DNA from: Albidovulum litorale
Lineage (GTDB): Bacteria; Pseudomonadota; Alphaproteobacteria; Rhodobacterales; Rhodobacteraceae
Reading direction: 5' to 3'
NCBI RefSeq assembly: GCF_025751495.1
Contig: NZ_JAOWKZ010000001.1
Location: 937,920-1,001,919, forward strand
DNA length: 64,000 bases
The notes below the pieces were generated by a model that saw only the letters and a program-made list of their open reading frames with translations, was not told the origin of the DNA and did no database searches. Position numbers and translations under genes: made by a program. Positions 2,984-19,478 of this stretch are shown one piece after another (position 1 is the first letter of the stretch; every line of letters begins with the position of its first letter).

Positions 2984-3655
2984 TCAACCCTTTGCCGCAC
3001 CGCCCACGACGCCCATTTCGGTGAACTTCCCCGGGAAGAAGGCCGCGGCACAGTTGAATGCCGTGTGGAGCGCTTCCGTCATGCTGTAGGGATCGCTCAT
3101 CGTCATCAGGTCGAACCAGGCGCCTTCGGTCGTCATCCGCAGCACCCGGGCGATGCGGACGGGATCGCCGGATTGGCCGGTTTCGGCCAGAAGTTCGCCG
3201 CAGATCTCCTCAAGGACGCGGGTGTATTCCCGGTCGTTCGACCCGCACTGTTCCTGATAAAGCGGCCTGCTCTGCGCCTCGCCCCAGAAGGCGCACCAAG
3301 CGGCAAGGCGTGATGGTGTACAGATCTCGGGATTGAAATCGGCCCTGAGTATCGCGTCAAGACGTTGCGCCGGCGCGGGTCCCGATGCCTCCAGCGCGGC
3401 GGTCCAGTTGCGGCGGTATTCCTCAGCGAGATAGGAAAGCGTCTCCCCCAGCAGACCTTCCTTCGTCTCGAAGTGGAAATTGACCAATCCATGCGAGAGC
3501 CCGGCATGGCGGGCGACATCGGTCAGCGTTGTCCGGGCATAACCCTTCCGGGCGATGATCTCGATCGTCGCTTCGATCAATTGTTCGCGTCGCGCTTGGC
3601 GGCTGAGCTTGCGCGGAGACGGCTGCACCGCCGCATTGCCTTCGACCTGGTTCAT
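2984..3655 (-). CDS. TetR/BetI-type transcriptional repressor
   Basis: A 223-residue one-component regulator. Residues about 20-65 form the TetR helix-turn-helix (TLTDVARHAGLSHGLVNFHF followed by ETKEGLL), very like BetI of choline/betaine regulons. The C-terminal half is a BetI-type ligand domain with the AAWCAFWGEA segment. I start at ATG 3655 (MNQVEGN) because the longer frame from 3718 reaches into the operator region. It is transcribed away from the 13-gene operon beginning at 3858, and a paired TTGAC-N6-GTCAA operator lies between them, so it most likely represses both itself and the operon until an inducer, perhaps a quaternary amine, binds. The ligand is not known. Confidence 0.85.
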   Translation of the reverse strand: MNQVEGNAAVQPSPRKLSRQARREQLIEATIEIIARKGYARTTLTDVARHAGLSHGLVNFHFETKEGLLGETLSYLAEEYRRNWTAALEASGPAPAQRLDAILRADFNPEICTPSRLAAWCAFWGEAQSRPLYQEQCGSNDREYTRVLEEICGELLAETGQSGDPVRIARVLRMTTEGAWFDLMTMSDPYSMTEALHTAFNCAAAFFPGKFTEMGVVGGAAKG

Positions 3656-3727
3656 TTTCGCTGCTCCGATCGCGGCCCTCGATTGCGACAGACATAGAAT
3701 ATCTGCCCGCGATTTCAATTAAATCAC

Positions 3728-3776
3728 ATTTTGACTGTACTGTCAGTCAAATTCTGATTGACAGTACAGTCAAAAT
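3728..3776. promoter_or_regulatory. Paired TetR-type operator between divergent genes
   Basis: Two 18-bp arms (attttgactgtactgtca at 3728-3745 and its exact complement at 3759-3776) are separated by 13 bases. Each arm also carries a nearly palindromic 16-bp site of the form TTGAC-N6-GTCAA (right site 3758-3773 perfect; left site 3731-3746 with one mismatch) around a GTAC core. This fits two TetR dimers binding side by side. Position between the tetR start (3655) and the aminotransferase start (3858) supports bidirectional control. Confidence 0.8.
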
Positions 3777-3857
3777 CCGTGTGAAATGGCGATGACCGCG
3801 AAGACCCGCTGATCGACGATCACCGCTGCTTCGCCTTATTCGCAAAGGAAACGGATC

Positions 3858-5201
3858 ATGCGTGCCGCGCCACGACGTACTATCGGAAAATCGAATGAAC
3901 AGTTCAAAAAGGCGCTGAAACGACTGCCGCTCGGCGTGGCATCGACCTTCCGCTATTGGGGTGATGACCGCACGATCTATGTCGATCACGGCAAGGGCGG
4001 GAGAATCTGGGACATCGACGGCAACGAATATGTCGACTATCGCCTCGGTTACGGGCCTGCAATTCTCGGCTATGCCGATGAGCGGGTCGACGCGGCCGCC
4101 CGCCGCGGCATGGAGGTCGGGGGGGTTTTCGCGCTGTCAACCGAGCGTGAGCTGGCCGTTGCCGACCGCATCGCCAAGATGGTGCCGGGCGTCGATCTCG
4201 TGCGCTACTCCAACTCGGGCACCGAGGCGGTGATGGCCGCTTTGCGCCTTGCCCGCGCCCATACCGGACGCGACAGCTATCTGCTGATCGAGGGCGCCTA
4301 TCACGGTCTTTTCGACGCGGCGATGTGGATGGCCAATGTCGAGGACTGGAGCCGCAAGGGCGGCGGCGACCCTGAGGTCGTACCCTATTCGCAAGGTATT
4401 CCGCAGGAATTGCGGTCCCTCGCCCATCTTGTGCCGATGAACGACGCACAACGGCTGGAGGACACGTTCAAGCGCCACGGCGACACGATGGCCGCGATGC
4501 TGATCGAGCCGATCCAGGGCAATTGCTGCGGAATCTCGGCCTCGGTCGAATATGTGCAGCTGGCACGTCGGCTTTGCGATCAGTACGGCGTTCTGCTGAT
4601 CATCGACGAGGTCAAGACCGGTTTCCGCGTCGCGCGCGGCGGGGTTCAGGCGCTGCTTGGCGTTACACCCGATGTCTGCACCTTCGCCAAGGCAATGGCG
4701 AACGGCTACCCGATCGCGGTTGTCGGCGGACGCGAGGAAGTCATGCGGACATTCCGCTATGGCGGTGCGGCCCATGGCGGCACCTATACCGCGCATTCCG
4801 TCAGCCTTGCCGCCGCCGAGGAATGTCTGCGCATCCTTGACGAGACACCGGCGCTGGAAACGCTCGCGAAATACGGTGCCGATCTGAAGGCCGGCATGTC
4901 GAGCGTCCTGAACCGTCGCGGCATCGCGCATTCCTATGCGGGTCACGACTCGATGTTCGGCCTCTTCTTCGCCGACAAGGCACCCGACAACTACCGCGAC
5001 TGGAAGCGGTCGGATTATTCCTTCTACGACCAGATGGCCTATTTCCTCCACGATCTCGGCATCATCTGCGAACCCGACAGCCGCGAACCCTGGTTCATGT
5101 GCGAAGCCCATGACACGGCCTGCCTCGATGACACGCTGAAGGCGTTCGAGACGGCGGTTGACATGACGCTGGAGCATTTCGAGGCCGAGAAGCGCGCATG
5201 A
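3858..5201 (+). CDS. Class III PLP-dependent aminotransferase (glutamate-semialdehyde aminomutase-like)
   Basis: 447-residue fold-type I PLP enzyme moving an amino group between an omega-amino or related substrate and a keto acid or aldehyde. Visible are the phosphate-binding NSGTEA (119-124), the cofactor aspartate in LLIIDEVKTGFR (D250) and the Schiff-base lysine K278 in FAKAMANGYP. Similarity in layout is to HemL-like aminotransferases, but HemL itself is unlikely because the gene heads a catabolic operon. The start at ATG 3858 has aaaggaaac upstream. Its last four bases overlap the next gene (ATGA), indicating translational coupling. It is the first gene after the paired TetR operator. 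The substrate is unknown; deamination of a demethylated amine is my inference. Confidence 0.85.
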   Translation: MRAAPRRTIGKSNEQFKKALKRLPLGVASTFRYWGDDRTIYVDHGKGGRIWDIDGNEYVDYRLGYGPAILGYADERVDAAARRGMEVGGVFALSTERELAVADRIAKMVPGVDLVRYSNSGTEAVMAALRLARAHTGRDSYLLIEGAYHGLFDAAMWMANVEDWSRKGGGDPEVVPYSQGIPQELRSLAHLVPMNDAQRLEDTFKRHGDTMAAMLIEPIQGNCCGISASVEYVQLARRLCDQYGVLLIIDEVKTGFRVARGGVQALLGVTPDVCTFAKAMANGYPIAVVGGREEVMRTFRYGGAAHGGTYTAHSVSLAAAEECLRILDETPALETLAKYGADLKAGMSSVLNRRGIAHSYAGHDSMFGLFFADKAPDNYRDWKRSDYSFYDQMAYFLHDLGIICEPDSREPWFMCEAHDTACLDDTLKAFETAVDMTLEHFEAEKRA

Positions 5202-6811
5202 GCTACGATGCGGCCATCATCGGTGCGGGCCATAACGGGCTGGTTGCAGCCTGTTATCTGGCCCGCGCCGGGCTGAAGGTCGTCGTCGTGGAGAAAAACG
5301 ACTGGATCGGTGGGGCCGCGGTATCGCGGGAACTGCATCCCGGCTTCACCTATTCCAACTGTTCCTATGTCTGCTCGCTCTTCCGGCCCGAGATCATGCG
5401 CGACCTCGAACTGCCGAAATATGGCCTGCAGGTTCTGCCCTATGAGGGTGGCGCTGTCTTCACCCGCGACGGCGGCTATCTCGCGATTTTCCGTGATCAC
5501 GACGCCAACCGCCGCGAATTCGCGCGCTATTCGCCACGCGATGCGGAAGCCTATGACCGCTATTCGCGCGATATCATGCGGCACTGCCGGTTCATCCGGC
5601 CGCTTCTGATGCGGACGCCCCCCGATCCCGCGACGTTCCGCCCGCGCGATCTTGCCGAACTGGCGTGGCTTGGCCGCAAGGTCGGCGAAATGTCCGAAAG
5701 CCAGATCTGCGACATGATCCGGTTCTGGACCATGTCGATCTCGGACTTCCTCGATGAATATTTCGAAAGTCCGGTGATCAAGGCCTATCTCGCTGTCTCG
5801 GCGATCATCGGCACCGCGCTCGGGCCGATGTCCCCGGGCTCGGCCTATGTGCTTCTGCACCACTACATGGGCGACGTTGACGGCAATGTCGGCGCATGGG
5901 GTTTCGCGCGCGGCGGCATGGGGGCGATCACGCAGGCGCTGACCGCATCGCTTCGCGCCTCCGGGGGCGAGGTGCGGACGGGCAAGGGCGTCGATACCGT
6001 TCTGGTAAGCAACGGCCGCGCGGTCGGGCTAAGACTCGACGATGGGGAAGAGATCGCGGCCAAGCGCGTCCTGTCCAACATGGATGTGAAGCGGACCTTC
6101 CTGAAACATGTCGACCGGGATGAACTGCCGCCCGCCTTCACCCGTCGGGTGGAGCGGTTCAAGACCCGCGGTTCGTCCGGCAAGCTCAACATTGCGCTCG
6201 ACTCTGCACCTCATTTCCCGGCGCTTCCCGAAGGATCGCCGATGCTGAAGGGCGATCTGCATTTCACCGACAGCGTCGAGCGGATGGAACGCGCCTATGA
6301 CGACTGGAAGGCCGGCCGCTTCAGCCGCGATCCGTTCCAGGACACGATGATGCCGACGATGATCGACCCGACGATGGCGCCGCCGGGCAAGCATTTCATG
6401 TCCTGCTTCATCCAGTATGCGCCGCCGAAGATCGACGGGCGCGACTGGACCGATGCCGACCGCGACGCCTTCGGCCAGACCGTCATCGACCAGATCGCCG
6501 AATACTCGCCCGGCTTCAAGGACCGCGTGCTGCATGCCGAGATCCGCACCCCGCGCGAATTGGAGGCCGAGGTCGGCCTGACCGAGGGCAATATCTTCCA
6601 GGGCGAGCTGACCTTCGACCAGCTTCTCTTCAACCGACCGGTGCCGGGCTATGCCCAGTACAAGACGCCGATCCGCGACCTCTGGCTCTGCGGCTCCTCC
6701 GCCCATCCCGGCGGCGGTGTCATGGGGGCCCCCGGCCGCAACGCCGCCGCCGAAATCCTCCGTGACACGCGCGCGCCCACCGAGATGAGGGAGGCCTATG
6801 CAGTCGTTTGA
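5198..6811 (+). CDS. FAD-dependent oxidoreductase, phytoene desaturase/PYROXD2-like (first copy)
   Basis: 537-residue flavoprotein of the COG1233 type. The N-terminus has the Rossmann GAGHNG (about 9-14) and the acidic end of strand 2 (VVVEKN), followed by GGAA typical of phytoene-desaturase-like enzymes. The C-terminal FAD segment HPGGGVMGAPGRNAA is present. These enzymes oxidise C-C or C-N bonds with FAD; most bacterial members outside carotenoid loci have no assigned substrate. There are no carotenoid genes nearby, so carotenoid synthesis is unlikely. It overlaps the aminotransferase by 4 bases and the following paralogue by 14 bases. An oxidase or dehydrogenase role on a methylated amine intermediate is inference. 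Confidence 0.85.
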   Translation: MSYDAAIIGAGHNGLVAACYLARAGLKVVVVEKNDWIGGAAVSRELHPGFTYSNCSYVCSLFRPEIMRDLELPKYGLQVLPYEGGAVFTRDGGYLAIFRDHDANRREFARYSPRDAEAYDRYSRDIMRHCRFIRPLLMRTPPDPATFRPRDLAELAWLGRKVGEMSESQICDMIRFWTMSISDFLDEYFESPVIKAYLAVSAIIGTALGPMSPGSAYVLLHHYMGDVDGNVGAWGFARGGMGAITQALTASLRASGGEVRTGKGVDTVLVSNGRAVGLRLDDGEEIAAKRVLSNMDVKRTFLKHVDRDELPPAFTRRVERFKTRGSSGKLNIALDSAPHFPALPEGSPMLKGDLHFTDSVERMERAYDDWKAGRFSRDPFQDTMMPTMIDPTMAPPGKHFMSCFIQYAPPKIDGRDWTDADRDAFGQTVIDQIAEYSPGFKDRVLHAEIRTPRELEAEVGLTEGNIFQGELTFDQLLFNRPVPGYAQYKTPIRDLWLCGSSAHPGGGVMGAPGRNAAAEILRDTRAPTEMREAYAVV

Positions 6812-8354
6812 TGCGATCGTGATCGGTGGCGGCACCAACGGGATGGCCTGCGCGGCCCGCCTGACCAAGGGGGGCAAGCGCGTCCTCGTGCTCGATGCCG
6901 CAGACCGCCCCGGCGGCGCGGCCGTCGGTGGCGACGGGGCGTCGGGTGCCTCGCAGATGCCGCTCGCGCATCTCCTGATGATGCTCGATCCGCGCGTTCA
7001 TGCCGGAATGGATCTGGACCAGTACGGCTTTTCCTATGCTGCGACGGACCTTGCGACGACCGCCCTGTCGGCCACCGGCGACCACCTCGTTCTCGAAGGC
7101 CCCGCCGGGGCCAGCCTTTCGGGTTCGCTGAGCGACGCCGACCGGGCCGCCTGGGCGACACTTCGCAAGCGCCTGCTGATCTATGCCGAGGCGCTGGTCC
7201 CGTTCCGCGCGCTGACCCCACCCCGGATCGCCCGCAAGGCCGGCAACGATATGCTCGGGCTCGCGAAGATCGGGCTTGGGCTGCGCCGTCTCGGTCGCGA
7301 TGAGTTCCGCGAGTTTCTCAGGCTTTTCCTCATCAACGTTGCCGACGTGCTGGAAGACGACCTCACCGATGACCGGCTCAAGGGCGTACTGGCCTTCGAC
7401 GCCGTGCTCGGGTCATGGCTCGGCCCGCGCTCGCCGAACTCGCTTCTGGTCTATCTCAACCGTCTCGCGGGCGAGGCGGCAGGCACCCGTGCCGCGCTCG
7501 CGCTGCCGAAAGGCGGCATGGGCACCGTCGCAGACGCCATGGCGCGCTCCGCCGCGGCTTCAGGTGTGACGCTGCAATCCGGCGCGCGGGTTGAGCGCAT
7601 CCTGATCGAAGACGACCGCGCGACCGGCGTGGTCCTGACTTCGGGCGAAACCTATCGGGCCCCGACGATCGTGTCCGCGGCAGGTCCGAAACAGACCCTG
7701 CTGGACCTCGTGGGTGCGCTCCACCTCGACACCGGTTTCGTCCGGCGTACCCGGAACATCCGGTCGCGTGGCGGTGCCGCAAAACTGCACCTTGCCTTGA
7801 CCGCACGACCCGATTTCCGTGGCGCGAACCCTGCGACGCGACTGGTGATCGCACCGGATATCAACATGGTCGAGACCGCTTTCAACGCCACGAAATACGG
7901 CGAAGTGCCCGAACGCCCGGTGATGGAGATCGTGATCCCGACTGCGCATGAAGCTGCCGGGGCAAGCGACCCGCATCTCCTGTCGGCCATCGTCCAGTTC
8001 GCGCCGCACGACCCGCGAGACGGGCTCGACAAGGCGCGCAAACAGATGCTGGCCAATACGCTAAATGTTCTTGAAGACCATGCGCCCGGGATCGGCGGCC
8101 TGATTTCCGAAAGCGAGCTTCTGATGCCACAGGATATCGAAGCGCGCTACGGGATGGCCGGAGGCAACTGGCACCACGGCGAACTGAGCGTGGAGCAGAT
8201 GCTGTTCTTGCGCCCCTTCGCCGATGCCGCTCAGTATTCGACACCCATCGCGGGGCTCTGGCTCGCCAGCGCGGGCAGCCATCCGGGCGGCGGCATTTCG
8301 GGTGCGGCGGGCTGGAACGCGGCCGAACGCATCCTGTCGGGGGTGGCGGCATGA
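6798..8354 (+). CDS. FAD-dependent oxidoreductase, phytoene desaturase/PYROXD2-like (second copy)
   Basis: 518-residue paralogue of the preceding protein, with GGGTNG at about 10-15, RPGGAA shortly after, and the same C-terminal HPGGGISGAAGWNAA flavin segment. The two share layout throughout (for example the LGSWLGPRSPNS region corresponds to IGTALGPMSPGS in the first copy) but are clearly diverged, so this is an old tandem duplication rather than a recent one. They may form a heteromeric enzyme or act on successive intermediates. The gene overlaps both neighbours (14 bases upstream, 4 bases downstream), so it belongs to the same transcript. Confidence 0.85.
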   Translation: MQSFDAIVIGGGTNGMACAARLTKGGKRVLVLDAADRPGGAAVGGDGASGASQMPLAHLLMMLDPRVHAGMDLDQYGFSYAATDLATTALSATGDHLVLEGPAGASLSGSLSDADRAAWATLRKRLLIYAEALVPFRALTPPRIARKAGNDMLGLAKIGLGLRRLGRDEFREFLRLFLINVADVLEDDLTDDRLKGVLAFDAVLGSWLGPRSPNSLLVYLNRLAGEAAGTRAALALPKGGMGTVADAMARSAAASGVTLQSGARVERILIEDDRATGVVLTSGETYRAPTIVSAAGPKQTLLDLVGALHLDTGFVRRTRNIRSRGGAAKLHLALTARPDFRGANPATRLVIAPDINMVETAFNATKYGEVPERPVMEIVIPTAHEAAGASDPHLLSAIVQFAPHDPRDGLDKARKQMLANTLNVLEDHAPGIGGLISESELLMPQDIEARYGMAGGNWHHGELSVEQMLFLRPFADAAQYSTPIAGLWLASAGSHPGGGISGAAGWNAAERILSGVAA

Positions 8355-9547
8355 AGGATCTGCGTCACCATTTCGAAACCCCGCTCAGGACCACGGCATT
8401 TCACAACCGTATCGCCGCAGCCAATGTCCTGAACGAATGGGCCCCATGGGCCGGATACACGACCGCGACCGTTCTCGAAGACGCGGAAACGGAATACACC
8501 GCGATCCGAAACACCGCGAGCCTCTACGACCTCTGCCCGATGATCAAATACCGGATCACCGGGCCCGGCGCCGTCGATTATCTCAACCGGCTGACGCTCA
8601 GGGACGTGGCACGCTTGCCGGTGGACGCGGTGCATTACACGGCATGGTGCGACGATCACGGCAAACTGCTCGATGACGGCACATTGTTCCGGCTGGGGGA
8701 AGCCGAGTTCCTGCTCTGCTGTCAGGAACGGCACCTGCCGTGGCTGGCGGATTCCGCCATCGGTTTTGACGTCACGATCCGCGACGTGACGGATGAGATC
8801 GCGGGCCTCTCGCTTCAGGGGCCCTGCACGGCGGCGGTTCTGACCGAGGCGGGCTTTGACGTCTCGGCGCTGAAACCCTTCCGCATCGCGCGCTATCCTT
8901 TCAAGGGCGGCACGCTGACGATCTCGCGCACCGGCTTTACGGGCGATCTCGGCTATGAACTTTGGATCGAGCCGGGGCGGGCGCTGCCACTCTGGGACCG
9001 GTTGATGGAGGCAGGCAGTTATTGCGGCATCCGCCCGGTCGGGTCCACCGCGCTCAACCTCGCGCGGATCGAGGCAGGCTTCATCACCACAAATGCCGAT
9101 TTCGTGCCCGCCGATCAGGCGGTTCGCGAAGACCGCGTGCGATCCCCTTACGAGATGGCGCTCGACTGGATGATCGACTTCGGCAAGGGCCATTTCAACG
9201 GCCGCCGCGCGCTTTTGAAGGAACGCGACACGCAATCGGGCGAATGGGCGTTTGTCGCGCTCGACATCGAAGGCAACGTCGCCGCAGATCACGCGATCCT
9301 CTATGACGGGCGCGACCGCGAGATCGGTCAGGTCACCTCCGCCGCATGGTCGCCGGTGACGAAGAGCAGCATCGCATTGGCCCATATGCGCCGCCCGTAT
9401 GACACCAAGGCGAAAGGCGGCATCTGGGCCGAAATCTACGCGCTCCGCGAACTGCATTACGTCAAGCTGATGATGAAGGCCGAAATCGTCGCTCGCCCCT
9501 TCTTCGCCCCGCCACGTCGGCGCGCCACACCCCCCGGACGGTTCTGA
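8351..9547 (+). CDS. GcvT-like aminomethyltransferase / folate-binding protein
   Basis: 398-residue protein of the GcvT/DmgdH folate-binding superfamily. It begins like a glycine-cleavage T-protein (FHNRIAAANVLNEW, then YDLCPMIKYRITGPGA corresponding to the T-protein's substrate-entry region), and has TGFTGDLGYELWIEP matching the conserved T-protein GYTGExGxEI segment. Family members transfer a one-carbon group from an amine to tetrahydrofolate; many catabolic versions serve in dimethylglycine, sarcosine or DMSP demethylation. No glycine-cleavage P or H genes are nearby, so a catabolic demethylase role is favoured. DmdA-type DMSP demethylases are also in this superfamily; I cannot tell from sequence which substrate applies. 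It is coupled to the upstream gene by a 4-base overlap. Confidence 0.8.
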   Translation: MKDLRHHFETPLRTTAFHNRIAAANVLNEWAPWAGYTTATVLEDAETEYTAIRNTASLYDLCPMIKYRITGPGAVDYLNRLTLRDVARLPVDAVHYTAWCDDHGKLLDDGTLFRLGEAEFLLCCQERHLPWLADSAIGFDVTIRDVTDEIAGLSLQGPCTAAVLTEAGFDVSALKPFRIARYPFKGGTLTISRTGFTGDLGYELWIEPGRALPLWDRLMEAGSYCGIRPVGSTALNLARIEAGFITTNADFVPADQAVREDRVRSPYEMALDWMIDFGKGHFNGRRALLKERDTQSGEWAFVALDIEGNVAADHAILYDGRDREIGQVTSAAWSPVTKSSIALAHMRRPYDTKAKGGIWAEIYALRELHYVKLMMKAEIVARPFFAPPRRRATPPGRF

Positions 9548-9558
9548 GGACAAACGTC

Positions 9559-10707
9559 ATGACCGAACACCGCCATCCCGCATCACCGCTTCTCGACCAC
9601 TGCCCCGAGACGCTTCCCGCGTCGTCCTATGTCGATCCCGACTGGTACGAGCGCGAGCGGCAGACGATCTGGGCGCGGAACTGGGTCTGCGCGGGCCGGC
9701 TTGATGACCTCTCCCCCGGCACCATCCGGCGGTTCGATCTTGCGGGCCACAATCTGATCCTCTGCCGTGACCGGGATGGCCGGGTAACGGCCTTTCACAA
9801 TACCTGCCGCCACCGCGGCTCGGAACTTTGCATCGAGGATAATGCCGAGCTCGGCAAGCTTATCCGCTGCCCCTACCATGCCTGGGCTTACGATACGAAC
9901 GGGCGGCTGATCTCGACCGCCTATGCGACGCCGACCGACGATTTCCGCAAGGAGGATCACAGCCTCTTCCCGGTCCACGTCCGGCTCTGGAATGGCTTCG
10001 TCTTTCTCAACCTCGCAGACGAGCCCGGCGAACTCGCGCCCGATCTGGGACTGGCCGCACTCGACAACTGGCCGATGGCGGACCTTCGCACGGGCCACCG
10101 TCTGGTCAAGGACATCGACTGCAACTGGAAGATCTTCTGGGAGAACTACAACGAATGCCTGCACTGCCCGGGCATCCACCCTGAGCTTTGCGACATGGTC
10201 CCGGTCTACCGCGACGGGATCATGTCACCCGAGGAGAGCTCGAACTGGTCAGCCGACACCGAACGGCCAACCGCGCTGCGCGACAAGGCCGTGACATGGA
10301 CCATGTCGGGTGAACCCTGCGGCCCGGAATTTCCGAACCTTTCCGCCGACGAACGTGCCAACGGCCACAACTTCGTGACGATCTATCCCACGATGTACAT
10401 CGTCGCCCATGTCGACTATGTGCGCGCCGTCTCGCTGATGCCGCTCGGGCCGGAACGGACCCGGCTGACCGCCGAATGGCTGTTCCCGGCAGAAACGCTT
10501 GCCCAGCCCGGCTTTGACGCCGCATCCGTGGCCGCGTTCGCAACCATCGTGATGGCTCAGGATGGTGAGGCTTGTGAGATGAACCAGCGCGGGTTGCGAA
10601 GCAGCCGCTACCGGCACGGACGGCTGATGCCACAGGAATTCGACATCGCGAAATTCCATGACTGGGTGCGTCGGCAGATGAATACGACCATCGGAGAAAC
10701 GCCATGA
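9559..10707 (+). CDS. Rieske non-heme iron oxygenase alpha subunit (GbcA-like), first copy
   Basis: 382-residue oxygenase component. The Rieske [2Fe-2S] ligands are C83, H85, C104 and H107 (CRHRGSEL and CPYHAW). The mononuclear iron site is NYNECLHCPGIH with H201 and H206. This combination is shared by glycine betaine monooxygenase GbcA, stachydrine demethylase and related N-demethylating enzymes, which release a methyl group as formaldehyde. A GCN-type reductase partner (GbcB-like) is not encoded anywhere in this operon, so electrons must come from another locus. It is followed with a 4-base overlap by a second alpha subunit. Confidence 0.88.
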   Translation: MTEHRHPASPLLDHCPETLPASSYVDPDWYERERQTIWARNWVCAGRLDDLSPGTIRRFDLAGHNLILCRDRDGRVTAFHNTCRHRGSELCIEDNAELGKLIRCPYHAWAYDTNGRLISTAYATPTDDFRKEDHSLFPVHVRLWNGFVFLNLADEPGELAPDLGLAALDNWPMADLRTGHRLVKDIDCNWKIFWENYNECLHCPGIHPELCDMVPVYRDGIMSPEESSNWSADTERPTALRDKAVTWTMSGEPCGPEFPNLSADERANGHNFVTIYPTMYIVAHVDYVRAVSLMPLGPERTRLTAEWLFPAETLAQPGFDAASVAAFATIVMAQDGEACEMNQRGLRSSRYRHGRLMPQEFDIAKFHDWVRRQMNTTIGETP

Positions 10708-11924: not shown

Positions 11925-11964
11925 TCTCAACATGAACGGCGACGTTTAAGGGAGGAGATCAGCA

Positions 11965-13068
11965 ATGACCAAACTGACAAGAAGAACAACGCTTGCAACG
12001 CTCGGAGCGGGCCTTGCAATGCCGTATGTGCGCCCGTCCTGGGCACAATCCGGCACCGTCAATGTTTATAACTGGGCGGACTATATTGGTGAGACGACGC
12101 TCGCCGATTTCGAAGCGCAGACCGGCATCGGGGTCGTCTATGACACCTATTCCTCGGCCGAGGAGATGCAGGCCAAGATGCTTGCCGGATCGACGGGCTA
12201 CGATGTGGTCGACCATGCTGGTATCGACATGCCGCGCGCCATAGCCGCCGGGATCTACGAAGAACTTGACAAGTCCCTGCTGCCCAACTGGGGCAATCTC
12301 GACACCGAAATCCTGCGCATCCTGTCGGGTTGGGATGAAGGCAACAAATACGGCATGCCTTACATGTGGGGCTCGGTCGGCTTCACCTACAATGTCGACA
12401 TGGTGAACGAACGGATCCCCGATGCCGACATGACCTCGATGGATCTGATCTTTGATCCCGAGAATGCCGCGAAGCTCGCCGATTGCGGCATCTCGATCCT
12501 CGACAGCCCGACCGACATCATGCTGATGGTGCTGAAATATCTCGGGCTCGACGGCGACACGACGAATGTCGAGGATTACCAGAAGGTGGTCGAGGCGTTT
12601 AAACCGATCCGCCAGTACATCCGCACCTTCGACAACACGAACTACCTCAACGCGATCCCGAACGGCGAACTTTGCGCGATCAACAACTGGTCGGGCGACT
12701 ATGCGACAGCGGCGGGCCGCGCGGCCGAGGCCGGGATCGACATGAACCTCGCCTATTTCGTGCCGAAAACCGGTGCGCCGGCCTGGGTCGATGTGATGTG
12801 CATCACCTCGGACTCGCCGAACCGCGAGAACGCGTACAAGTTCCTCGACTTCATGATGCAGCCCGAAGTCGCTGCGGGATGCACGAACTACACCTACTAC
12901 GCCAATGCCAACGTGCCCGCGCGCGAATTCGTTCTGCAGGAAATCCTCGACGACCCGGCGGTTTATCCCGACGCCGAGACGATCGGCCGGATGTGGGCGC
13001 CGAAACCGTTCAGCGAAGAGCAGGACCGGGCCATCACCCGCGCCTGGCAGGACATCAAGTCGGGCTGA
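11965..13068 (+). CDS. Extracellular solute-binding protein, PotD/polyamine type
   Basis: 367-residue periplasmic binding protein delivering a small cationic or amine ligand to the ABC permeases encoded just downstream. It begins with a Tat-like signal (LTRRTTLATLGAG ending at AWAQ, about residue 28), then VNVYNWADYIG, the hallmark opening of PotD/PotF proteins. The sequence keeps the aromatic-rich binding cleft pattern. The intergenic 41 bases contain aagggaggag before ATG 11965, a strong ribosome site expected for an abundant binding protein. Placement in the same operon as the oxygenases suggests its ligand is the substrate of the pathway, not necessarily a polyamine. Confidence 0.88.
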   Translation: MTKLTRRTTLATLGAGLAMPYVRPSWAQSGTVNVYNWADYIGETTLADFEAQTGIGVVYDTYSSAEEMQAKMLAGSTGYDVVDHAGIDMPRAIAAGIYEELDKSLLPNWGNLDTEILRILSGWDEGNKYGMPYMWGSVGFTYNVDMVNERIPDADMTSMDLIFDPENAAKLADCGISILDSPTDIMLMVLKYLGLDGDTTNVEDYQKVVEAFKPIRQYIRTFDNTNYLNAIPNGELCAINNWSGDYATAAGRAAEAGIDMNLAYFVPKTGAPAWVDVMCITSDSPNRENAYKFLDFMMQPEVAAGCTNYTYYANANVPAREFVLQEILDDPAVYPDAETIGRMWAPKPFSEEQDRAITRAWQDIKSG

Positions 13069-13114
13069 ACCAACCGGTTCCACTGGCAACCACTCACCGG
13101 AGGAGACCGTCTGG

Positions 13115-14278
13115 ATGTCCGAACCTGCGACGAATATTGGCGCGAAAGTCGCGCAGTTTCCGCGCGCCGCCGCGCTGGCCGAAAAGGAACCGCCCTTCAT
13201 TCGCGTTGAAGGCGTAACGAAGCGGTTCGGATCATTCACGGCGGTCTCCTCCGTCAACCTCGAAATCCGCAAGGGAGAGATCTTTTCTCTCCTCGGCGGT
13301 TCGGGCTGCGGCAAGACCACGCTTCTGCGGATGCTCGCCGGGTTCGAGGACCCGACCGAGGGCCGCATCTTTATCGACGGGCAGGACATGACCGACCTGC
13401 CCCCTTATGAGCGCCCGGTGAACATGATGTTCCAGTCCTATGCGCTCTTTCCCCATATGACGGTCGAAAAGAACGTCGCCTACGGGCTGAAACATATGGA
13501 CATGACAGCGTCCCAGCGTGCAGACCGGGTGCGCGAGATGCTGGCGCTTGTGCAGCTTTCCGACTTTTCCCACCGCAAGCCGCACCAGATTTCCGGCGGC
13601 CAGCGGCAGCGCGTTGCGCTGGCGCGCGCGCTCGCCAAGCAGCCGAAGCTTCTCTTGCTCGACGAACCGCTCGCCGCGCTCGACAAGAAGCTGCGCGAGG
13701 CGACGCAGTTCGAACTGATGGATATTCAGGACAAGACCGGCACGACCTTCATCGTCGTCACCCATGATCAGGAAGAGGCGATGACGCTGTCGTCGCGTCT
13801 CGCGGTCATGGACAAGGGCCGGATCATGCAGACCGGCACCGCGACCGAGGTCTATGAATACCCCAATTCGAAACTCGTCGCCGGGTTCATCGGGTCAATC
13901 AACTTCTTCGAGGCGACGATCCGGGACGTACGCGACGATGTCGCGACGGTGGACGCACCAGAGCTTGGCGCGACCGTCGAGGCGCGCGCGATCCCTGGCC
14001 TTTCGCCCGGCCAGCCAATCACACTGGCGATCCGCCCCGAAAAGCTGACGATCTCACGTTCGAAACCCGAGGGGCCGAATGCCATTTCGGGCAAGGTCCG
14101 CGACCTCGCCTATTTCGGCAAGGACTCGCTCTACCGCATCGAACTGCCATCCGGGCGCGTGCTGTCCATCAACTCGGTCAACTCGCGGCGCGTCGGTGAA
14201 AACGAGAGGGTCGCGGACTGGGAAGACGCGGTCTGGCTGTCGTTCGACCCCTCGTCGGCCATCCTGCTGAAGGACTGA
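13115..14278 (+). CDS. ABC transporter ATPase, PotA type
   Basis: 387-residue ATPase with Walker A GGSGCGKTT, signature ISGGQRQR, Walker B LLLLDEPLAALD and switch histidine in VVTHDQEEAM, followed by a TOBE regulatory domain (about residues 290-380). I start at ATG 13115 with ggaggagacc upstream; the frame is open further back to 12905, but that part lies inside the binding-protein gene. It couples ATP hydrolysis to import through the two following permeases. A roughly 40-residue N-terminal extension before the first ABC strand is typical of PotA/PotG proteins. Confidence 0.9.
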   Translation: MSEPATNIGAKVAQFPRAAALAEKEPPFIRVEGVTKRFGSFTAVSSVNLEIRKGEIFSLLGGSGCGKTTLLRMLAGFEDPTEGRIFIDGQDMTDLPPYERPVNMMFQSYALFPHMTVEKNVAYGLKHMDMTASQRADRVREMLALVQLSDFSHRKPHQISGGQRQRVALARALAKQPKLLLLDEPLAALDKKLREATQFELMDIQDKTGTTFIVVTHDQEEAMTLSSRLAVMDKGRIMQTGTATEVYEYPNSKLVAGFIGSINFFEATIRDVRDDVATVDAPELGATVEARAIPGLSPGQPITLAIRPEKLTISRSKPEGPNAISGKVRDLAYFGKDSLYRIELPSGRVLSINSVNSRRVGENERVADWEDAVWLSFDPSSAILLKD

Positions 14279-14282
14279 TCCG

Positions 14283-15224
14283 ATGAGCCTCTCGTCACGC
14301 TCTGCAAGATTGCGGAAATGGTTCAACCGGCGCGGCTGGATCAAGATCACGATCGCCACGCCCTATATCTGGCTGGCGCTGTTCTTCCTTCTGCCCTTCA
14401 TCATCGTCATGGCGATGAGCTTCGCCACGCGCACCCCGACGGCGCCGCCCTTCTCCTTCGGCGGTGACCACCCGGTGATGAACACCGACCACTACGCGCG
14501 GCTGTTCAGCGACGATCTCTATATCCGCGCCTATCTGAACTCCATCGGCAACGCGACGCTCGCAACCTTGATGTGCCTCATGATCGGCTATCCGATGGCT
14601 TTGGGCCTGACGCGGGTCAGCCGGTCATGGCGCAACGTCCTCCTGATGCTGGTGATCCTGCCGTTCTGGACCTCGTTCCTTCTGCGGGTCTACGCTTGGA
14701 TGGGGCTCATGGGCACGAACAGCTGGTTCAACAAGCTCCTGACAGGTGCCTACAACTGGATCGTCCCGTCCGACATGGCGCTGCGCTACATCCCGATGAT
14801 GAATACCGGCTTCGCGGTCGTGCTGGTGACGGTCTATTCCTACCTGCCGTTCATGATCCTGCCGCTCTATGCCAATCTCGAAAAGCTCGACATCTCGCTG
14901 AACGAAGCGGCGATGGACCTCGGATCGAAACCGTTCCAGGTCTTCCGCGACGTGACGTTGCCCCTGTCGGTGCCGGGTATCATCGCCGGATCGCTTCTGG
15001 TGTTCATCCCGGCCTCGGGCGAGCTGATCATCCCCTCGCTCGTCGGCTCCTCCTCGCGGCCGATGATCGGCCGCGTCATCTCCGACGAATTCGCCTCGGC
15101 ACGGGACTGGCCGATGGCCTCGGCAGTGGCCGTGGCGCTCCTCCTCCTCCTCGTCGTGCCGCTGATGATCTACACCTATTACGACGGCAAGGCGCATGAG
15201 AAAGCGCAGAAGGAGGCAACATGA
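14283..15224 (+). CDS. ABC transporter permease, PotB type
   Basis: 313-residue inner-membrane permease with about six membrane segments, the first near residues 28-46 (YIWLALFFLLPFIIVM). The EAA loop that contacts the ATPase is NEAAMDLGSKPFQVFRDVTLP in two parts, as in PotB. It is separated from potA by four bases and overlaps potC by four bases (ATGA). Together with potDAC it forms a complete type I importer within the catabolic operon. The ligand is not evident from sequence. Confidence 0.88.
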   Translation: MSLSSRSARLRKWFNRRGWIKITIATPYIWLALFFLLPFIIVMAMSFATRTPTAPPFSFGGDHPVMNTDHYARLFSDDLYIRAYLNSIGNATLATLMCLMIGYPMALGLTRVSRSWRNVLLMLVILPFWTSFLLRVYAWMGLMGTNSWFNKLLTGAYNWIVPSDMALRYIPMMNTGFAVVLVTVYSYLPFMILPLYANLEKLDISLNEAAMDLGSKPFQVFRDVTLPLSVPGIIAGSLLVFIPASGELIIPSLVGSSSRPMIGRVISDEFASARDWPMASAVAVALLLLLVVPLMIYTYYDGKAHEKAQKEAT

Positions 15225-16060
15225 ACCGCCGACCCGTCTTCCTGATCACGATGCTCTGCTTCGGATTCGCTTTCTTCTACATCCCGATCATTTCGATGAT
15301 GGTCTATTCGTTCAACGGATCGCGGCTGGCGACCGTCTGGGGCGGGTTCTCCACCAAGTGGTACATCTCGCTGCTGTCCAACCGGCAGGTCCTGAAGGCG
15401 GTAATCCTGTCCTTGGAGATCGCGGTCCTCAGCGCCACGGTCGCAACGATCCTCGGCACCATGGCGGGCATCGCGATGGCGCGGTTCAAGAGGTTCCGGG
15501 GACGCACCTTGTTTTCCGGTCTCGTGACCGCCCCGCTCGTCATGCCCGAAGTGATCACCGGCATCGCCTCGCTCATGCTCTTCATACTGATGGCCGAATA
15601 TATCGGCTGGCCCGCGACGCGCGGCTTCACCACGGTGACGCTGGCCCACATCACCTTCTCAATGGTCTTCGTCACGACCATCGTCCATTCCCGCCTCGTC
15701 CAAGCCGATGAGGCCATTGAAGAGGCCGCGATGGATCTGGGCAGCCGCCCATGGCAGGTGATGAAGGACATCACGCTGCCGGTCATCTCCCCTGCAATCC
15801 TGTCGGGCTGGCTTCTGGCCTTCACCATCTCGCTCGACGATGTGGTTATCACGAACTTCACCACCGGGCCGGGCACGACGACCCTGCCGATCCTGATCTG
15901 GTCGAAGGTCAAGCTTGGCGTCACGCCTGATATCAATGCTCTGGCGACGATCACGGTGGTGATCGTGGGCATTGGGGTCTTTACCGCGGGCTGGCTCCTG
16001 AACCGCGCGGAAAAGCGCCGCGAGCTTGACATCCAGCTTGCCTATCAGGCCAACCAATGA
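15221..16060 (+). CDS. ABC transporter permease, PotC type
   Basis: 279-residue permease partner of the preceding gene. First membrane segment at about residues 8-28, EAA loop EEAAMDLGSRPWQVMKD, and the LSLDDVV-like motif near residue 205 (TISLDDVVITNF) that is diagnostic of PotC/PotI proteins. Its stop overlaps the start of the cupin gene by four bases, showing that transporter and enzyme genes are translated as one unit. Confidence 0.9.
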   Translation: MNRRPVFLITMLCFGFAFFYIPIISMMVYSFNGSRLATVWGGFSTKWYISLLSNRQVLKAVILSLEIAVLSATVATILGTMAGIAMARFKRFRGRTLFSGLVTAPLVMPEVITGIASLMLFILMAEYIGWPATRGFTTVTLAHITFSMVFVTTIVHSRLVQADEAIEEAAMDLGSRPWQVMKDITLPVISPAILSGWLLAFTISLDDVVITNFTTGPGTTTLPILIWSKVKLGVTPDINALATITVVIVGIGVFTAGWLLNRAEKRRELDIQLAYQANQ

Positions 16061-16938
16061 CCGCACGGGACGATGCGCGCGCACGTGTCGACCTTTACGC
16101 CGCGCTTGGACAGCCGGGTTCGGGGCGCGTGCGTTATGCCGCCGCGATGTACTTCAACTGCAAGGGTCTGCTGTCATCCGAGGCCCTTGAGGTCTACCGC
16201 ATCTGCTCGGCGCGCGATGGTGACGACCCCGCGGCACTCATGGCGACGCGCGGTCTTGCACCGAACCTGCCCCCTCCGCCCGATCTGAACCGCGAGCAGG
16301 CATTGCGCCTTCTGCTGGATGAGGTCGACCGCTATCTCGCGACCCTCCCCGGTGCCGGTATCGCAGAATCCCGCGCCGGACTGGCTGCCCTCCGCGATGG
16401 TCCCGTGCGGTCTGAACCACGCGGCCCGGACGCGACCGTCCGCGCCCATCTGCCCGCAGCGCTTGCGGCACTCACCGACAGTCACCCTGCCCTTGCCACC
16501 GCGATCGAAATGGCCGAACCGCATCTGTGCTGGCGCGTCTATGACAGCTACCCCCCGGAACAGATCGGCACCGCTTTCAACGCCGGCCACGCCTATACCT
16601 CGCTGATCGGAGAGGGCGCGATTGCCGCCGACGACTTCGATCTCGGCCTTTTCCTGATCGCGCCCGGTCTGCTCTACCGCGACCACGCGCATCCCGCGCC
16701 AGAGCTTTATGCACCCCTGACCGGACCGCATGGCTGGCGCTTCGCGCCGGAGGGACCAATCGCCGTCAAACCCGCGCATGAACCGGTCTGGAACGAGCCC
16801 GGCCAGCCGCATCTGACCAAGGTGGGCCCGGTTCCGTTCCTGTGCATCTATTGCTGGACGCGCGACGTGAACGAACCCGCGCAGATCATCGCGGCCACGG
16901 ACTGGGACGCGCTTGAACGTCTGAAAATCAGCGCCTGA
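16057..16938 (+). CDS. Cupin protein of the DMSP lyase (DddQ/DddL-like) family
   Basis: 293-residue protein whose C-terminal half is a cupin barrel. It matches cupin motif 1 exactly in spacing: G204, then five residues, H210, H212, E216, and G223 (around APGLLYRDHAHPAPELY). The following tyrosine Y218 corresponds to the catalytic tyrosine proposed for DddQ, which lies just after the metal-binding histidines. H241 or H252 could be the remaining metal ligand. DddQ/DddL/DddW enzymes cleave dimethylsulfoniopropionate to dimethyl sulfide and acrylate. However, the family also contains uncharacterised members, the N-terminal 150 residues here look helical and specific, and no acrylate-processing genes follow, so DMSP lyase activity is uncertain. 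It is translationally coupled to potC. Confidence 0.65.
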   Translation: MTARDDARARVDLYAALGQPGSGRVRYAAAMYFNCKGLLSSEALEVYRICSARDGDDPAALMATRGLAPNLPPPPDLNREQALRLLLDEVDRYLATLPGAGIAESRAGLAALRDGPVRSEPRGPDATVRAHLPAALAALTDSHPALATAIEMAEPHLCWRVYDSYPPEQIGTAFNAGHAYTSLIGEGAIAADDFDLGLFLIAPGLLYRDHAHPAPELYAPLTGPHGWRFAPEGPIAVKPAHEPVWNEPGQPHLTKVGPVPFLCIYCWTRDVNEPAQIIAATDWDALERLKISA

Positions 16939-16971
16939 CCCAGATACAGACAAGAGAGGGAGGACGGGGAC

Positions 16972-17757
16972 ATGGAAGCGGAAGGTGGCGAGCTTTATCA
17001 CAGGCGCCTGATCGACATGCTCGAGGCTCTCTGGGGCACGGGGTTCCTGTCCCCGGGCGGCCCGGACGAGGTCGGCCGGGTCGTTGCCGGAATGGATCTT
17101 GGCGGCAAGGCCATTCTTGACATCGGTTGCGGTGCAGGCGGGATCGACGTCGCGCTCATCGGCAACCATGGCGCGGGATACGTCACCGGGATCGACGTCG
17201 AGGACACCGTGCTGACCCGCGCCCGCGAAGTGATCTCGGACGCCGGGCTGTCGGATCGCATCGGCTGCCTGAAGGTCGCGCCCGGTCCCCTGCCCTTCCC
17301 GCCCTCCACCTTCGACATCGTCTTTTCCAAGGATTCCATCGTCCATATCCCCGACAAGCACGCCCTCATGCGCGAGGTCTTCCGCGTGCTGCGCCCCGGG
17401 GGATGGTTCATCGCTTCCGACTGGCTGATCGGCCATGACGGCGCGCCAAGCGCCGAGATGGCCGCCTATATCGCCGCCGAGGGGCTCGATTTCGGCATGG
17501 CCTCGCCCGGCCGCTACCGCGAAGCCATGAATGAAGCGGGGTTTACCGACATCACGATTACCAGCCGCAACCTCTGGTACCGCGATACGGCACGGTCAGA
17601 ACTTGACCGCCTCCAGGGCCCGGTCGGGCAGGCGGCGGCCAAGCTGGTCGGGCAGGATTTCGTGGATGACAATATTGGCATCTGGCAAAGGATGATCCCC
17701 GTCCTCGACAGCGGCGAACATTGCCCGACCCATCTCAGAGCACGCAAACCTGAATGA
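16972..17757 (+). CDS. Class I SAM-dependent methyltransferase
   Basis: 261-residue methyltransferase with motif I ILDIGCGAGGIDVAL (about 45-59), an acidic residue at the end of strand 2 (VTGIDVED), motif post-II and the RVLRPGGWFIASDW segment typical of UbiE/PmtA or phosphoethanolamine-N-methyltransferase-like enzymes. A gagagggaggacgggg ribosome site precedes ATG 16972. It could methylate an amine or thiol intermediate, or be a salvage step that moves methyl groups. Its presence in an operon of demethylating enzymes is unexpected and worth noting. It overlaps the amidohydrolase by four bases. Confidence 0.8.
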   Translation: MEAEGGELYHRRLIDMLEALWGTGFLSPGGPDEVGRVVAGMDLGGKAILDIGCGAGGIDVALIGNHGAGYVTGIDVEDTVLTRAREVISDAGLSDRIGCLKVAPGPLPFPPSTFDIVFSKDSIVHIPDKHALMREVFRVLRPGGWFIASDWLIGHDGAPSAEMAAYIAAEGLDFGMASPGRYREAMNEAGFTDITITSRNLWYRDTARSELDRLQGPVGQAAAKLVGQDFVDDNIGIWQRMIPVLDSGEHCPTHLRARKPE

Positions 17758-19391
17758 CCGTTGCCGCTCATCATTCCGCTGACCTGATTGTCATCAATGC
17801 GCGCATCGTCACGATGGACGGGGCGATCCCCTATGCCGAGGCGCTGGCTGTCCGGAACGGGCGCGTTATCGCACTGGGGACCAGTGCCGATATCCGGGAT
17901 CTGGCGCACTCTTCCACTCGTGTGATCGACGCTGGCGGGCGACTGGTGCTGCCGGGCTTTCAGGACACCCATATCCATCTTCAGGACAGCGGACAGGACT
18001 ACAGCCAGAACGCCGATCTTTCGGCCGCGCGCAGCCAGGACGATATCGTGGCGACTTTGTCGGCCTTCGCGAAAACGCACTCCCGGCCATGGGTCAATGG
18101 CACCGGCTGGTATTCCGGCATCTTCACCGCGCAGAACCTCGACCGCCACCTGCTCGACCGCGCCGTTCCCGACCGGCCCTGCCTGATCGTCGCCTCGGAC
18201 GGGCATAACGGTTGCATGAATACGCTCGGCTGCAAGGCGGTCGGGCTCGAACCCGGAACGCCCGATCCGCAGAACGGCCATTTCGTTACGGATGCCAGGG
18301 GCGAGCCCACCGGCATGCTCTACGAAAACGCGGTCATGTGGGCCGAAAGCCGTATGCCTCACCCCTCCGACGCCGACTTTGCCGCGGGCGTGAAATGGGC
18401 GCAGGCACTCGCGCACCGCCATGGCATCACCGGCGTCATCGACGCCAAGGTGGAGGAGCGCCATGTCCGCGTCTACCGCGCGCTGGAAGCGGCGGGGGAG
18501 CTGACATTGCGGGTTGCGGCAACCTCGCTTGTCAACGCGTTCGACACGACAGAAGGCGCGGTCGAGCGTCTGACCGCCTTCCGCGCCAGCGCGAGGGGGC
18601 CGCGCTTCAAGGTGCATTCGGCCAAGTTCTTCCTCGATGGCGTCGTCGAGAACCGGACGGCCGCTATGATCGCGCCCTATTCGGACGCCGAGGGCGGCAA
18701 CGCGCCCCTGATGTTCACGCCCGCCCAGATCAACGAGATGTTCACGGCCTTCGACGCCGCGCGCTTCCAGATCCACGTCCATGCCATCGGCGACATGGCG
18801 GTGCGGGCCGCGCTCGATGGTTGCGAAGCGGCGCGAATCGCGAATGGCGACTGGCCGTCTCTGCACCAGATCGCCCATATCCAGTTTCTTGACCCCGCCG
18901 ATATTCCGCGCTTCCGGTCGCTCGGGGTCATGGCCAATGTCCAGCCGCTCTGGGCCCGGAGCGAGCCATCGGTGACCGATGTCGCCGTGCCGATGGTCGG
19001 CAACGACCGCAGTCGCTGGATCTATGCGTTCCGGTCCCTGCTCGATGGCGGCGCTGCGATGGCCTTGTCCAGTGATTGGGGCGTCTCCACCCTCAACCCG
19101 TTCGAGATCATCGAAACCGCCGTGACCCGCCAGCCCCCCGCGGCCGAGGGCAAGGTGCCACCCTTCGTACCGGAAGAGCGCATCACGCGGATGGAAGCGG
19201 TCGCGGGCTACACGACCGAAGCCGCAGCAGCCGCCTGGAGATCGACTGAAACCGGCTCCCTTGCGATCGGCAAAGCGGCAGACCTGATCGTACTCGACCG
19301 CGATATCTTCACCTGCCCGGCCTACGAAATCGGTGGCACGAATGTCGATTTGACCATGGTCGGCGGAGACGTGGTCTTTGAAAGGCACTGA
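17754..19391 (+). CDS. YtcJ-like amidohydrolase (amidohydrolase 3 family)
   Basis: 545-residue metal-dependent hydrolase. The N-terminal beta-sandwich part leads into GFQDTHIHLQD, the HxH metal site, and later into HAIGDMAVRAAL and SSDWGVSTLNPFE, all matching the YtcJ/exoenzyme-regulatory-protein AepA group. Family members hydrolyse C-N bonds in amides or cyclic ureas; most are uncharacterised. As the last gene of the operon it would release an amine or open a ring in the imported compound or an intermediate. A bidirectional terminator follows at 19421. Confidence 0.85.
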   Translation: MTVAAHHSADLIVINARIVTMDGAIPYAEALAVRNGRVIALGTSADIRDLAHSSTRVIDAGGRLVLPGFQDTHIHLQDSGQDYSQNADLSAARSQDDIVATLSAFAKTHSRPWVNGTGWYSGIFTAQNLDRHLLDRAVPDRPCLIVASDGHNGCMNTLGCKAVGLEPGTPDPQNGHFVTDARGEPTGMLYENAVMWAESRMPHPSDADFAAGVKWAQALAHRHGITGVIDAKVEERHVRVYRALEAAGELTLRVAATSLVNAFDTTEGAVERLTAFRASARGPRFKVHSAKFFLDGVVENRTAAMIAPYSDAEGGNAPLMFTPAQINEMFTAFDAARFQIHVHAIGDMAVRAALDGCEAARIANGDWPSLHQIAHIQFLDPADIPRFRSLGVMANVQPLWARSEPSVTDVAVPMVGNDRSRWIYAFRSLLDGGAAMALSSDWGVSTLNPFEIIETAVTRQPPAAEGKVPPFVPEERITRMEAVAGYTTEAAAAAWRSTETGSLAIGKAADLIVLDRDIFTCPAYEIGGTNVDLTMVGGDVVFERH

Positions 19392-19420
19392 CCCGCCAGA
19401 ACCGACGCCGCGCCCAAAGC

Positions 19421-19452
19421 AAAAGGCCGGGCAGTGAACCGCCCGGCCTTTC
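19421..19452. terminator. Bidirectional intrinsic terminator
   Basis: aaaggccgggc (19422-19432) pairs perfectly with gcccggccttt (19441-19451) around an 8-base loop. Flanking A and T runs give a terminator in both directions, ending the 13-gene operon on the plus strand and the small secreted-protein gene on the minus strand. Confidence 0.85.
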
Positions 19453-19478
19453 TGAATTATTCAGTCGCAGTCAGGCGA

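Follow-up and report, generated by a model that had tools for sequence, protein, structure and literature searches.

A 64,000-nucleotide stretch of the Albidovulum litorale genome (contig NZ_JAOWKZ010000001.1, 937,920–1,001,919; "the window", numbered from its first letter) carries 13 plus-strand genes at 3858–19391, opposite a divergent TetR gene. With about even confidence, these genes are explained as a repressor-controlled operon for the import and degradation of an N-methylated, quaternary, polyamine-like cation, e.g. an aminoalkyl-trimethylammonium compound. A substrate of this kind is suggested because the substrate-binding protein, PotD, has a PotF-type amine site and RO1, one of two Rieske oxygenases, carries a CntA-type signature for quaternary ammonium; judged from the sequences, the gene block and its operator are also conserved and the metal site of a dimethylsulfoniopropionate (DMSP)-lyase-like cupin is intact. 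The identity of the compound, the order of the steps and the roles of the cupin, a methyltransferase (MT) and an amidohydrolase (AH3) we infer from this context. The original prediction is supported in so far as the operon looks self-contained, importing and degrading a methylated nitrogen compound under a BetI-like repressor; its 13 genes and divergent TetR gene were borne out in their coordinates and, by Pfam, in their families (Table 1). Its unfamiliarity with this exact assembly is matched by searches of the open-access literature, in which no published account of the assembly was found.

As set out in a portion of PMC8666671, the PotF site comprises proximal residues (S38, D39, D247), an aromatic box (W37, W244, F276) and distal residues (S85, S87, A182, E185, D278, L348), with a salt bridge between D39 and R254. 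Across 41 PotD orthologues, W37, W244 and D278 are invariant, F276 is Trp and E185 is Asp in all 41, D39 is Asp in 40 and Glu in one, D247 is Asp in 39 and Glu in two, and R254 is Arg in 40. A nine-residue pattern, WDDWDRWDY, was found in 42 of 46 binding proteins of the window group, including the window's own (43 distinct sequences). A sister family of binding proteins, c14, has WGDWTEWCY in all 11 members (9 distinct), with loss of three carboxylates, and seven more distant PotD-like proteins (<45% identity) have other patterns, none of them the complete one. On this alignment, all four amine-binding carboxylate positions of PotF are kept in PotD, one as Asp for Glu. Such a site would be expected to take a di- or polycation, with cationic amines at two or more ends, and to be unsuited to zwitterions such as betaine or DMSP.

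Group V Rieske oxygenases are linked to quaternary ammonium substrates in passages of PMC7948474 and PMC10952381, according to which CntA has a bridging glutamate (E205), certain members carry a Cys206-Cys209 pair, and CntA and its close relatives, though not all group V members, have the cation-pi aromatic (Y203). The equivalent E199, C200 and C203 of RO1 are present in 112/112 sequences and position 197 is aromatic in all of these (Tyr in 76, Phe in 36), many of the 112 having been collected with search patterns that include CNWK[IV]FW, just before the signature. RO1 is thus assigned, by alignment, the signature of carnitine-monooxygenase-type enzymes that attack quaternary ammonium. The adjacent RO2 has the bridging glutamate (E207) in 44/44 sequences and lacks both the Cys pair and the aromatic in 44/44, with Gly208, Val211 and Asp205 at these positions. 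Both proteins fall far short of the GbcA equivalog (RO1, 177.8 bits; RO2, 123.2 bits; cut-off 670). From these residues we infer that the quaternary centre would fall to RO1 and a protonated amine to RO2.

The regulator matches the Pfam BetI-type C-terminal domain (TetR_C_6) and scores 101 bits against the cut-off of 201.3 for the NCBIfam BetI equivalog, so that "BetI-like" holds at the level of the domain and not of the equivalog. Its start is likelier to be the ATG at 3655 (by eye) than the TTG at 3718. The intergenic region between the TetR gene and AT3, the first gene of the operon, contains a perfect inverted repeat with 18-bp arms and a 13-base spacer, within which lie two boxes, TTGACTGTACTGTCAG (3731–3746) and TTGACAGTACAGTCAA (3758–3773). 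A box with no more than two mismatches to TTGACWGNNCWGTCAA was identified in 33 of 38 flanks of loci with an orthologous TetR gene (36 distinct regulators), equalled in at most 1/200 block shuffles. In the other five flanks, a box with no more than one mismatch lies in the stretch before AT3 (0/200 shuffles as good), this stretch having been picked after the first result, when approximate open-frame starts were seen to have misplaced the first one. With both stretches combined, a TTGACAGNNCAGTCAA-like box (≤2 mismatches) is found at the equivalent place in 38/38 related flanks.

In a search of the window's own genome allowing up to three mismatches, the two operon boxes are the only sites with one mismatch or fewer, and nine sites were found in total, compared with 21 for a reversed-pattern control; the matches with two or three mismatches are noise and a wider regulon is not claimed. 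Among 394 genomes sampled across the family, 19 sites have the exact TTGACAGNNCAGTCAA form: sorted by hand, 13 precede the operon, whole or fragmentary, one precedes another polyamine-type importer (L240; our locus numbers begin with L, our genome numbers with G) and five are in or near unrelated genes. A different but related palindrome, TTGACTGNNCAGTCAA, occurs in many of the 394 genomes, mostly as a single copy, and perhaps serves a different regulator.

At the 3′ end of the operon, the region 19405–19470 has a predicted fold of −26.3 kcal/mol (z −2.83; 2/200 shuffles as good). The hairpin within it is absent from a consensus terminator scan that requires five T and that returned eight terminator-like sites against 11.2 expected. 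Neither this hairpin nor the operator repeat featured in the original prediction. Taken together, the operator repeat, the conserved box and the terminal hairpin support a single 13-gene unit under its own repressor. Four-base ATGA overlaps, originally described for most junctions, were found at six of the 12; FAD1 and FAD2 overlap by 14 bases, and the remaining five junctions are gaps of 4, 11, 33, 40 and 46 bases, the last being the largest in the operon. A tRNA-Ala (cgc) reported by ARAGORN at 13167–13246 falls inside potA and was taken as a false positive.

Table 1 Features of the candidate operon and its regulatory region, by position in the window.
Feature	Position	Strand	Basis
TetR-family repressor with BetI-type C-terminal domain	2984..3655	-	Pfam TetR_N and TetR_C_6 above cut-off
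Putative operator region, perfect 18-bp inverted repeat	3728..3776	.	Arms 3728-3745 and 3759-3776
AT3, class-III pyridoxal phosphate-dependent aminotransferase	3858..5201	+	Pfam; nearest NCBIfam model GntE, below cut-off
FAD1, oxidoreductase of the flavin amine oxidase/phytoene-desaturase superfamily	5198..6811	+	Pfam, PF01593 first match
FAD2, another FAD oxidoreductase of the FAD1 superfamily	6798..8354	+	Pfam, NCBIfam
GcvT-like folate-binding protein, not DmdA	8351..9547	+	Pfam GCV_T
RO1, Rieske oxygenase alpha subunit with CntA-type quaternary-ammonium signature (Y197, E199, C200, C203)	9559..10707	+	Pfam, alignment
RO2, the other Rieske oxygenase; has the bridging Glu (E207), with Asp205 at the cation-pi aromatic position and the Cys pair missing	10704..11924	+	
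PotD, PotF-like substrate-binding protein with putrescine-site residues kept	11965..13068	+	
PotA, ATPase of polyamine-type ATP-binding cassette importer	13115..14278	+	TIGR01187, 380.7 bits (cut-off 355.6)
PotB, PotB/PotH-type permease	14283..15224	+	Pfam, NCBIfam
PotC, PotC/PotI-type permease	15221..16060	+	Pfam, NCBIfam
DMSP-lyase-like cupin with extra N-terminal helical region	16057..16938	+	Pfam PF16867 above cut-off; predicted fold
MT, S-adenosylmethionine-dependent (class-I) methyltransferase	16972..17757	+	Closest relative of solved structure: phosphoethanolamine N-methyltransferase
AH3, amidohydrolase of the Amidohydro_3 family (optional)	17754..19391	+	Pfam
Terminator-like hairpin after AH3, 11 bp, no long T run	19422..19451	+	Folding

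Gene order is kept at roughly 50–99% protein identity in other species and genera, a degree of conservation that, from these comparisons, is far beyond chance. Of 22 genomes sampled in the genus of the window, its own included, 16 carry an orthologue of the cupin (E < 1e-90). Across the family, RO1 is present in 31/394 genomes, the cupin clade in 20/394 and MT in 49/394, and variants of the gene block occur in roughly one in twenty of the sampled genomes. RO1 is found in 17 of the 20 cupin genomes and MT in 14 (RO1–cupin co-occurrence, Fisher p 1e-18, shared ancestry ignored); of the three without RO1, two (G424, G430) have much of the operon and the third (G317) is a contig of only 3.7 kb. 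Fuscovulum ytuae carries the complete set of 14 genes on a 169-kb plasmid that was typed as non-mobilizable (same contig as L090) and whose record is annotated gene by gene and names no pathway.

Partners were counted near RO1 genes of at least 55% identity, in 15 loci of the same genus (L013–L027) and 28 of other genera (L069–L097, less L097, in which RO1 is <55% identical); L028, L031, L032, L098 and L099 were excluded, and L083/L092 and L095/L096 come from the same genomes. These counts are lower bounds, several loci ending at contig edges, and genes of relatives were called by simple open-frame scripts, so that start positions are rough and some genes may have gone uncalled. In the genus, RO1, RO2, PotDABC and the cupin are present in all 15 loci, MT in 14, AT3 in 12, TetR in 11, FAD1, FAD2 and GcvT in nine and AH3 in five. 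In other genera FAD1 is present in 19 of the 28 loci, RO2, TetR, FAD2 and GcvT in 16 each, PotD, PotA and the cupin in 15, AT3, PotB and PotC in 14, MT in 11 and AH3 in seven. The stable set in the genus is RO1, RO2, PotDABC and the cupin, usually with MT and AT3, while FAD1-FAD2-GcvT is usually gained or lost jointly (missing together in L016, L017, L019 and L022). In L072/L103, L105 and L117, RO1, RO2 and the cupin form a trio that lacks AT3; L105 and L117 lie close to contig ends. The operon is a modular unit of which the 13-gene set is one variant: gene order is conserved across genera, and the gene set is not constant. With the amidohydrolase optional, the amide or cyclic C-N bond first proposed for the substrate is not supported; cyclic imino acids are kept as a rival on account of neighbouring genes in some genomes of the genus, weighed below.

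A second type of locus (L079, L084, L086 and, in part, L097) combines RO1 with more distant FAD1, FAD2 and GcvT genes, another class-III aminotransferase and the c14 binding protein. Separately, L184, L186, L187 and L201 carry FAD1, FAD2, GcvT, the class-III aminotransferase of this second type and MT, RO1 not being in the stretch fetched; a FAD-GcvT fusion is present in L184 and L187, and an oxygenase of PhyH type and an oxidase of DAO type in L186. This sister cluster looks like a second uncharacterised amine pathway.

The predicted fold of the cupin (pLDDT 89.9; 15 sequences) has as its best Foldseek matches the DddQ entries 4b29, 5cu1, 5jsp, 4la2 and 4la3, with 20–26% identity to the DddQ entries listed. 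Six residues are given as essential for DddQ in a passage of PMC4437653 (Y120, H123, H125, E129, Y131, H163); these map to Y207, H210, H212, E216, Y218 and H252, all present in the window protein. Five are invariant in 34/34 cupins, and H210, the equivalent of H123 and first metal-site histidine, is Arg in 2/34. By these residues the metal site is intact and the protein belongs with the DMSP-lyase-like cupins. Import of a sulfonium osmolyte (DMSP or a relative), to be cleaved by the cupin, would fit this resemblance but is highly improbable, as the operon setting argues against DMSP cleavage: the binding site of PotD appears to be for cations only, the first metal-site histidine is not constant, and no operon gene has any acrylate-metabolism assignment in Pfam or NCBIfam. 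Nor is the GcvT-like protein a DmdA, a candidate assignment ruled out by its score against the DmdA model (117.9 bits; cut-off 410), while DmdA itself is encoded elsewhere in the genome (577.8 bits, the only one of 21 matches to the model over the cut-off). The osmolyte or sulfonium substrate of the original prediction, DMSP included, was set aside on these grounds. Also counting against it, the genome has a second DMSP_lyase-family cupin on another contig (G000 contig 7, 414648–415091), among housekeeping-like genes (by eye).

The cupin of the operon most likely performs a lyase step on a pathway intermediate, as far as its fold and residues indicate. One specific version, very doubtful, is that it is a quaternary-ammonium lyase, which would convert an acid with trimethylammonium on the beta-carbon to trimethylamine and an acrylate-type acid; such an acid could derive from the imported amine through AT3 and an aldehyde dehydrogenase, and MT may improve the leaving group by methylating an intermediate. 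The reaction would then be the nitrogen counterpart of DMSP cleavage and, if true, would assign a role to one of the branches of orphan DMSP-lyase-like cupins. In L031, L106, L111 and L121, where the DMSP-lyase-like cupin was not seen, there is a 120-residue ChrR-type cupin (Cupin_7), which looks like a substitute for it, yet L089 and L116 hold both.

The best solved relatives of MT are the phosphoethanolamine N-methyltransferases 5wp4 (E 4e-33) and 5wp5 (1.4e-32), making N-methyl transfer to a small amine plausible. A close homologue (65–67% identity) in L189 and L191 lies beside altronate/galactarate-dehydratase-type genes (by eye), so the MT family has other settings as well. AT3 scores 449.6 bits against the GntE (guanitoxin transaminase) equivalog, below the cut-off of 525, and has glutamate-1-semialdehyde aminomutases as solved relatives. 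Both genes would be at home in an operon for salvage or biosynthesis, where MT would make a quaternary amine for the Rieske enzymes and the cupin to process into a retained product: MT is a near-constant member in the genus and closest to an N-methyltransferase for phosphoethanolamine, and the model nearest AT3 is a biosynthetic one. A central importer, several enzymes of oxidative demethylation type and a TetR repressor are, from knowledge of these families, typical of catabolism, and the biosynthetic explanation appears very improbable. FAD1 gave a poor predicted model (pLDDT 60.6).

If the operon does degrade a quaternary polyamine-like cation, TetR would leave the operator upon binding the amine or a product, and the cation would enter via PotDABC. 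RO1 would oxidise at the quaternary nitrogen, held through the cation-pi tyrosine, and RO2, with Asp at the place of the aromatic, would act on the resulting protonated tertiary or secondary amine. FAD1, FAD2 and GcvT may form a three-part dehydrogenase passing the leftover N-methyl carbon to tetrahydrofolate. AT3 would convert the free primary amine to an aldehyde, to be oxidised by an aldehyde dehydrogenase encoded elsewhere, and the cupin would carry out a metal-dependent elimination on the acid so formed. MT and AH3 are presumably accessory: MT may N-methylate an intermediate and AH3 may release the amine from an acyl conjugate.

The neighbours of RO1 in other genomes, some of them several kilobases away, agree with amine, mostly methylated-amine, catabolism. 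They include flavoproteins resembling old yellow enzyme and trimethylamine dehydrogenase (L102, L109, L115, L123; that of L109 is under every NCBIfam cut-off, and a homologue in L183 matches Pfam Oxidored_FMN), genes of the trimethylamine methyltransferase family (by Pfam in L072 and by similarity in L117, with weaker cases in L109, L115 and L119), FAD-GcvT fusions (L131, L151, L154; L080, L089 and L104 by similarity or eye), choline-kinase-family genes (L104 by Pfam; L089, L116 by eye) and aldehyde dehydrogenases (L138 by Pfam; L079, L081, L083 by eye). The RO1-RO2-cupin trio of L072 (G173 contig 32, same contig as L103) adjoins beta-hydroxyaspartate-cycle genes (BhcA, BhcC, BhcD, over NCBIfam cut-off), which hints at glyoxylate as a product in this genome, a single case.

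Glutamine-synthetase-family genes were also found near RO1 (L091/L122, L097, L102); the L091 copy scores 194.4 bits against the gamma-glutamylputrescine synthetase model and 193.0 against the type III glutamine synthetase model, both far below cut-off. Such genes, with the PotF-type site, the class-III aminotransferase and the flavin amine oxidase family of FAD1, would be expected if plain polyamines (putrescine, spermidine) were degraded and the Rieske and folate enzymes did not N-demethylate. This explanation leaves the RO1 signature, constant in the whole set, and a folate-binding GcvT-like protein without evident use on unmethylated amines, and is distinctly unlikely.

Another possible substrate is zwitterionic: a betaine of an N-methylated amino or imino acid, such as hydroxyproline betaine, pipecolate betaine or a compound of the carnitine type. 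Its methyls would be stripped by the Rieske enzymes and GcvT and the product passed to hydroxyproline or lysine catabolism. The best solved relatives of RO1 are 3vca and 4qup, structures of the stachydrine demethylase Stc2, and the repressor is BetI-like. Hydroxyproline genes adjoin the operon in some loci of the genus: L022 has 4-hydroxyproline epimerase and cis-3-hydroxyproline dehydratase over cut-off beside it, L017 trans-3-hydroxyproline dehydratase over cut-off and L019 DapA- and DadA-like genes (by eye), while L033, next to L017 in the same genome, has L-piperidine-6-carboxylate dehydrogenase over cut-off. However, the four carboxylate positions of PotD would repel a carboxylate ligand, RO1 has a CntA-type aromatic where 3vca has Asn, and the hydroxyproline adjacency was seen in one genus only, with a GntR-type gene beside those genes in L019 and L022 (by eye). 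A betaine is unlikely on balance, if still worth weighing. Homarine and trigonelline were also considered as substrates and set aside, no matching gene set having been found in literature searches.

Several observations weigh against a quaternary polyamine-like substrate or a dedicated operon for it. The hydroxyproline and piperideine-6-carboxylate dehydrogenase neighbours in some genomes of the genus could hint at cyclic imino acids. PotD is below the PotF equivalog cut-off (334.4 vs 636 bits, NCBIfam), and loci of the c14 type keep RO1, FAD1, FAD2 and GcvT without the amine site. For FAD1 and FAD2 the closest NCBIfam models, whose cut-offs are not reached, are of carotenoid type (FAD1: CrtO, 323.9 bits vs 1000). 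No Rieske reductase or aldehyde dehydrogenase family was matched among the operon genes by Pfam, and no sigma-70-like promoter was found before the operon in a consensus scan. The cupin is missing from 14 of the 31 RO1 genomes and 24 of the 49 MT genomes lack RO1, so that parts of the operon also serve elsewhere. A methyltransferase is odd in a demethylating operon, yet MT is retained in 14/15 loci of the genus (11/28 in other genera).

If the proposed function is correct, the operon would fill a gap in how bacteria obtain nitrogen and one-carbon units from methylated polyamines, and would place in a testable setting a DMSP-lyase-like cupin of a family used to indicate dimethyl sulfide production. 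Markers for the pathway in genomes and metagenomes could then be the operator motif and the trio of RO1, RO2 and cupin.

Parts of the operon have counterparts in known systems. The importer is in four parts, as is the PotFGHI putrescine importer, and keeps the key positions of the amine site, but is embedded among oxidative genes, and its binding protein, under the PotF cut-off, has Asp for E185, Trp for F276 and mostly Ile or Leu for S87. RO1 shares the bridging glutamate, the Cys-X-X-Cys pair and the aromatic cation-pi residue with CntA and other group V enzymes (Stc2, GbcA). It differs in lying far under the GbcA cut-off and in being adjacent to a second Rieske subunit that has neither Cys pair nor aromatic, in an operon without a reductase gene. 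An FAD oxidoreductase coupled with a folate-binding GcvT domain recalls the dimethylglycine and sarcosine dehydrogenases, but here three separate proteins are involved, with flavoproteins of the amine oxidase/CrtO branch; the fusions in related loci are of the DAO branch, unlike the flavoproteins of the operon. In its predicted fold and metal site the cupin resembles DddQ and the DMSP-lyase-like cupins, from which it is set apart by an added N-terminal helical region, a first metal-site histidine that is not invariant and an operon that contains no DMSP genes.

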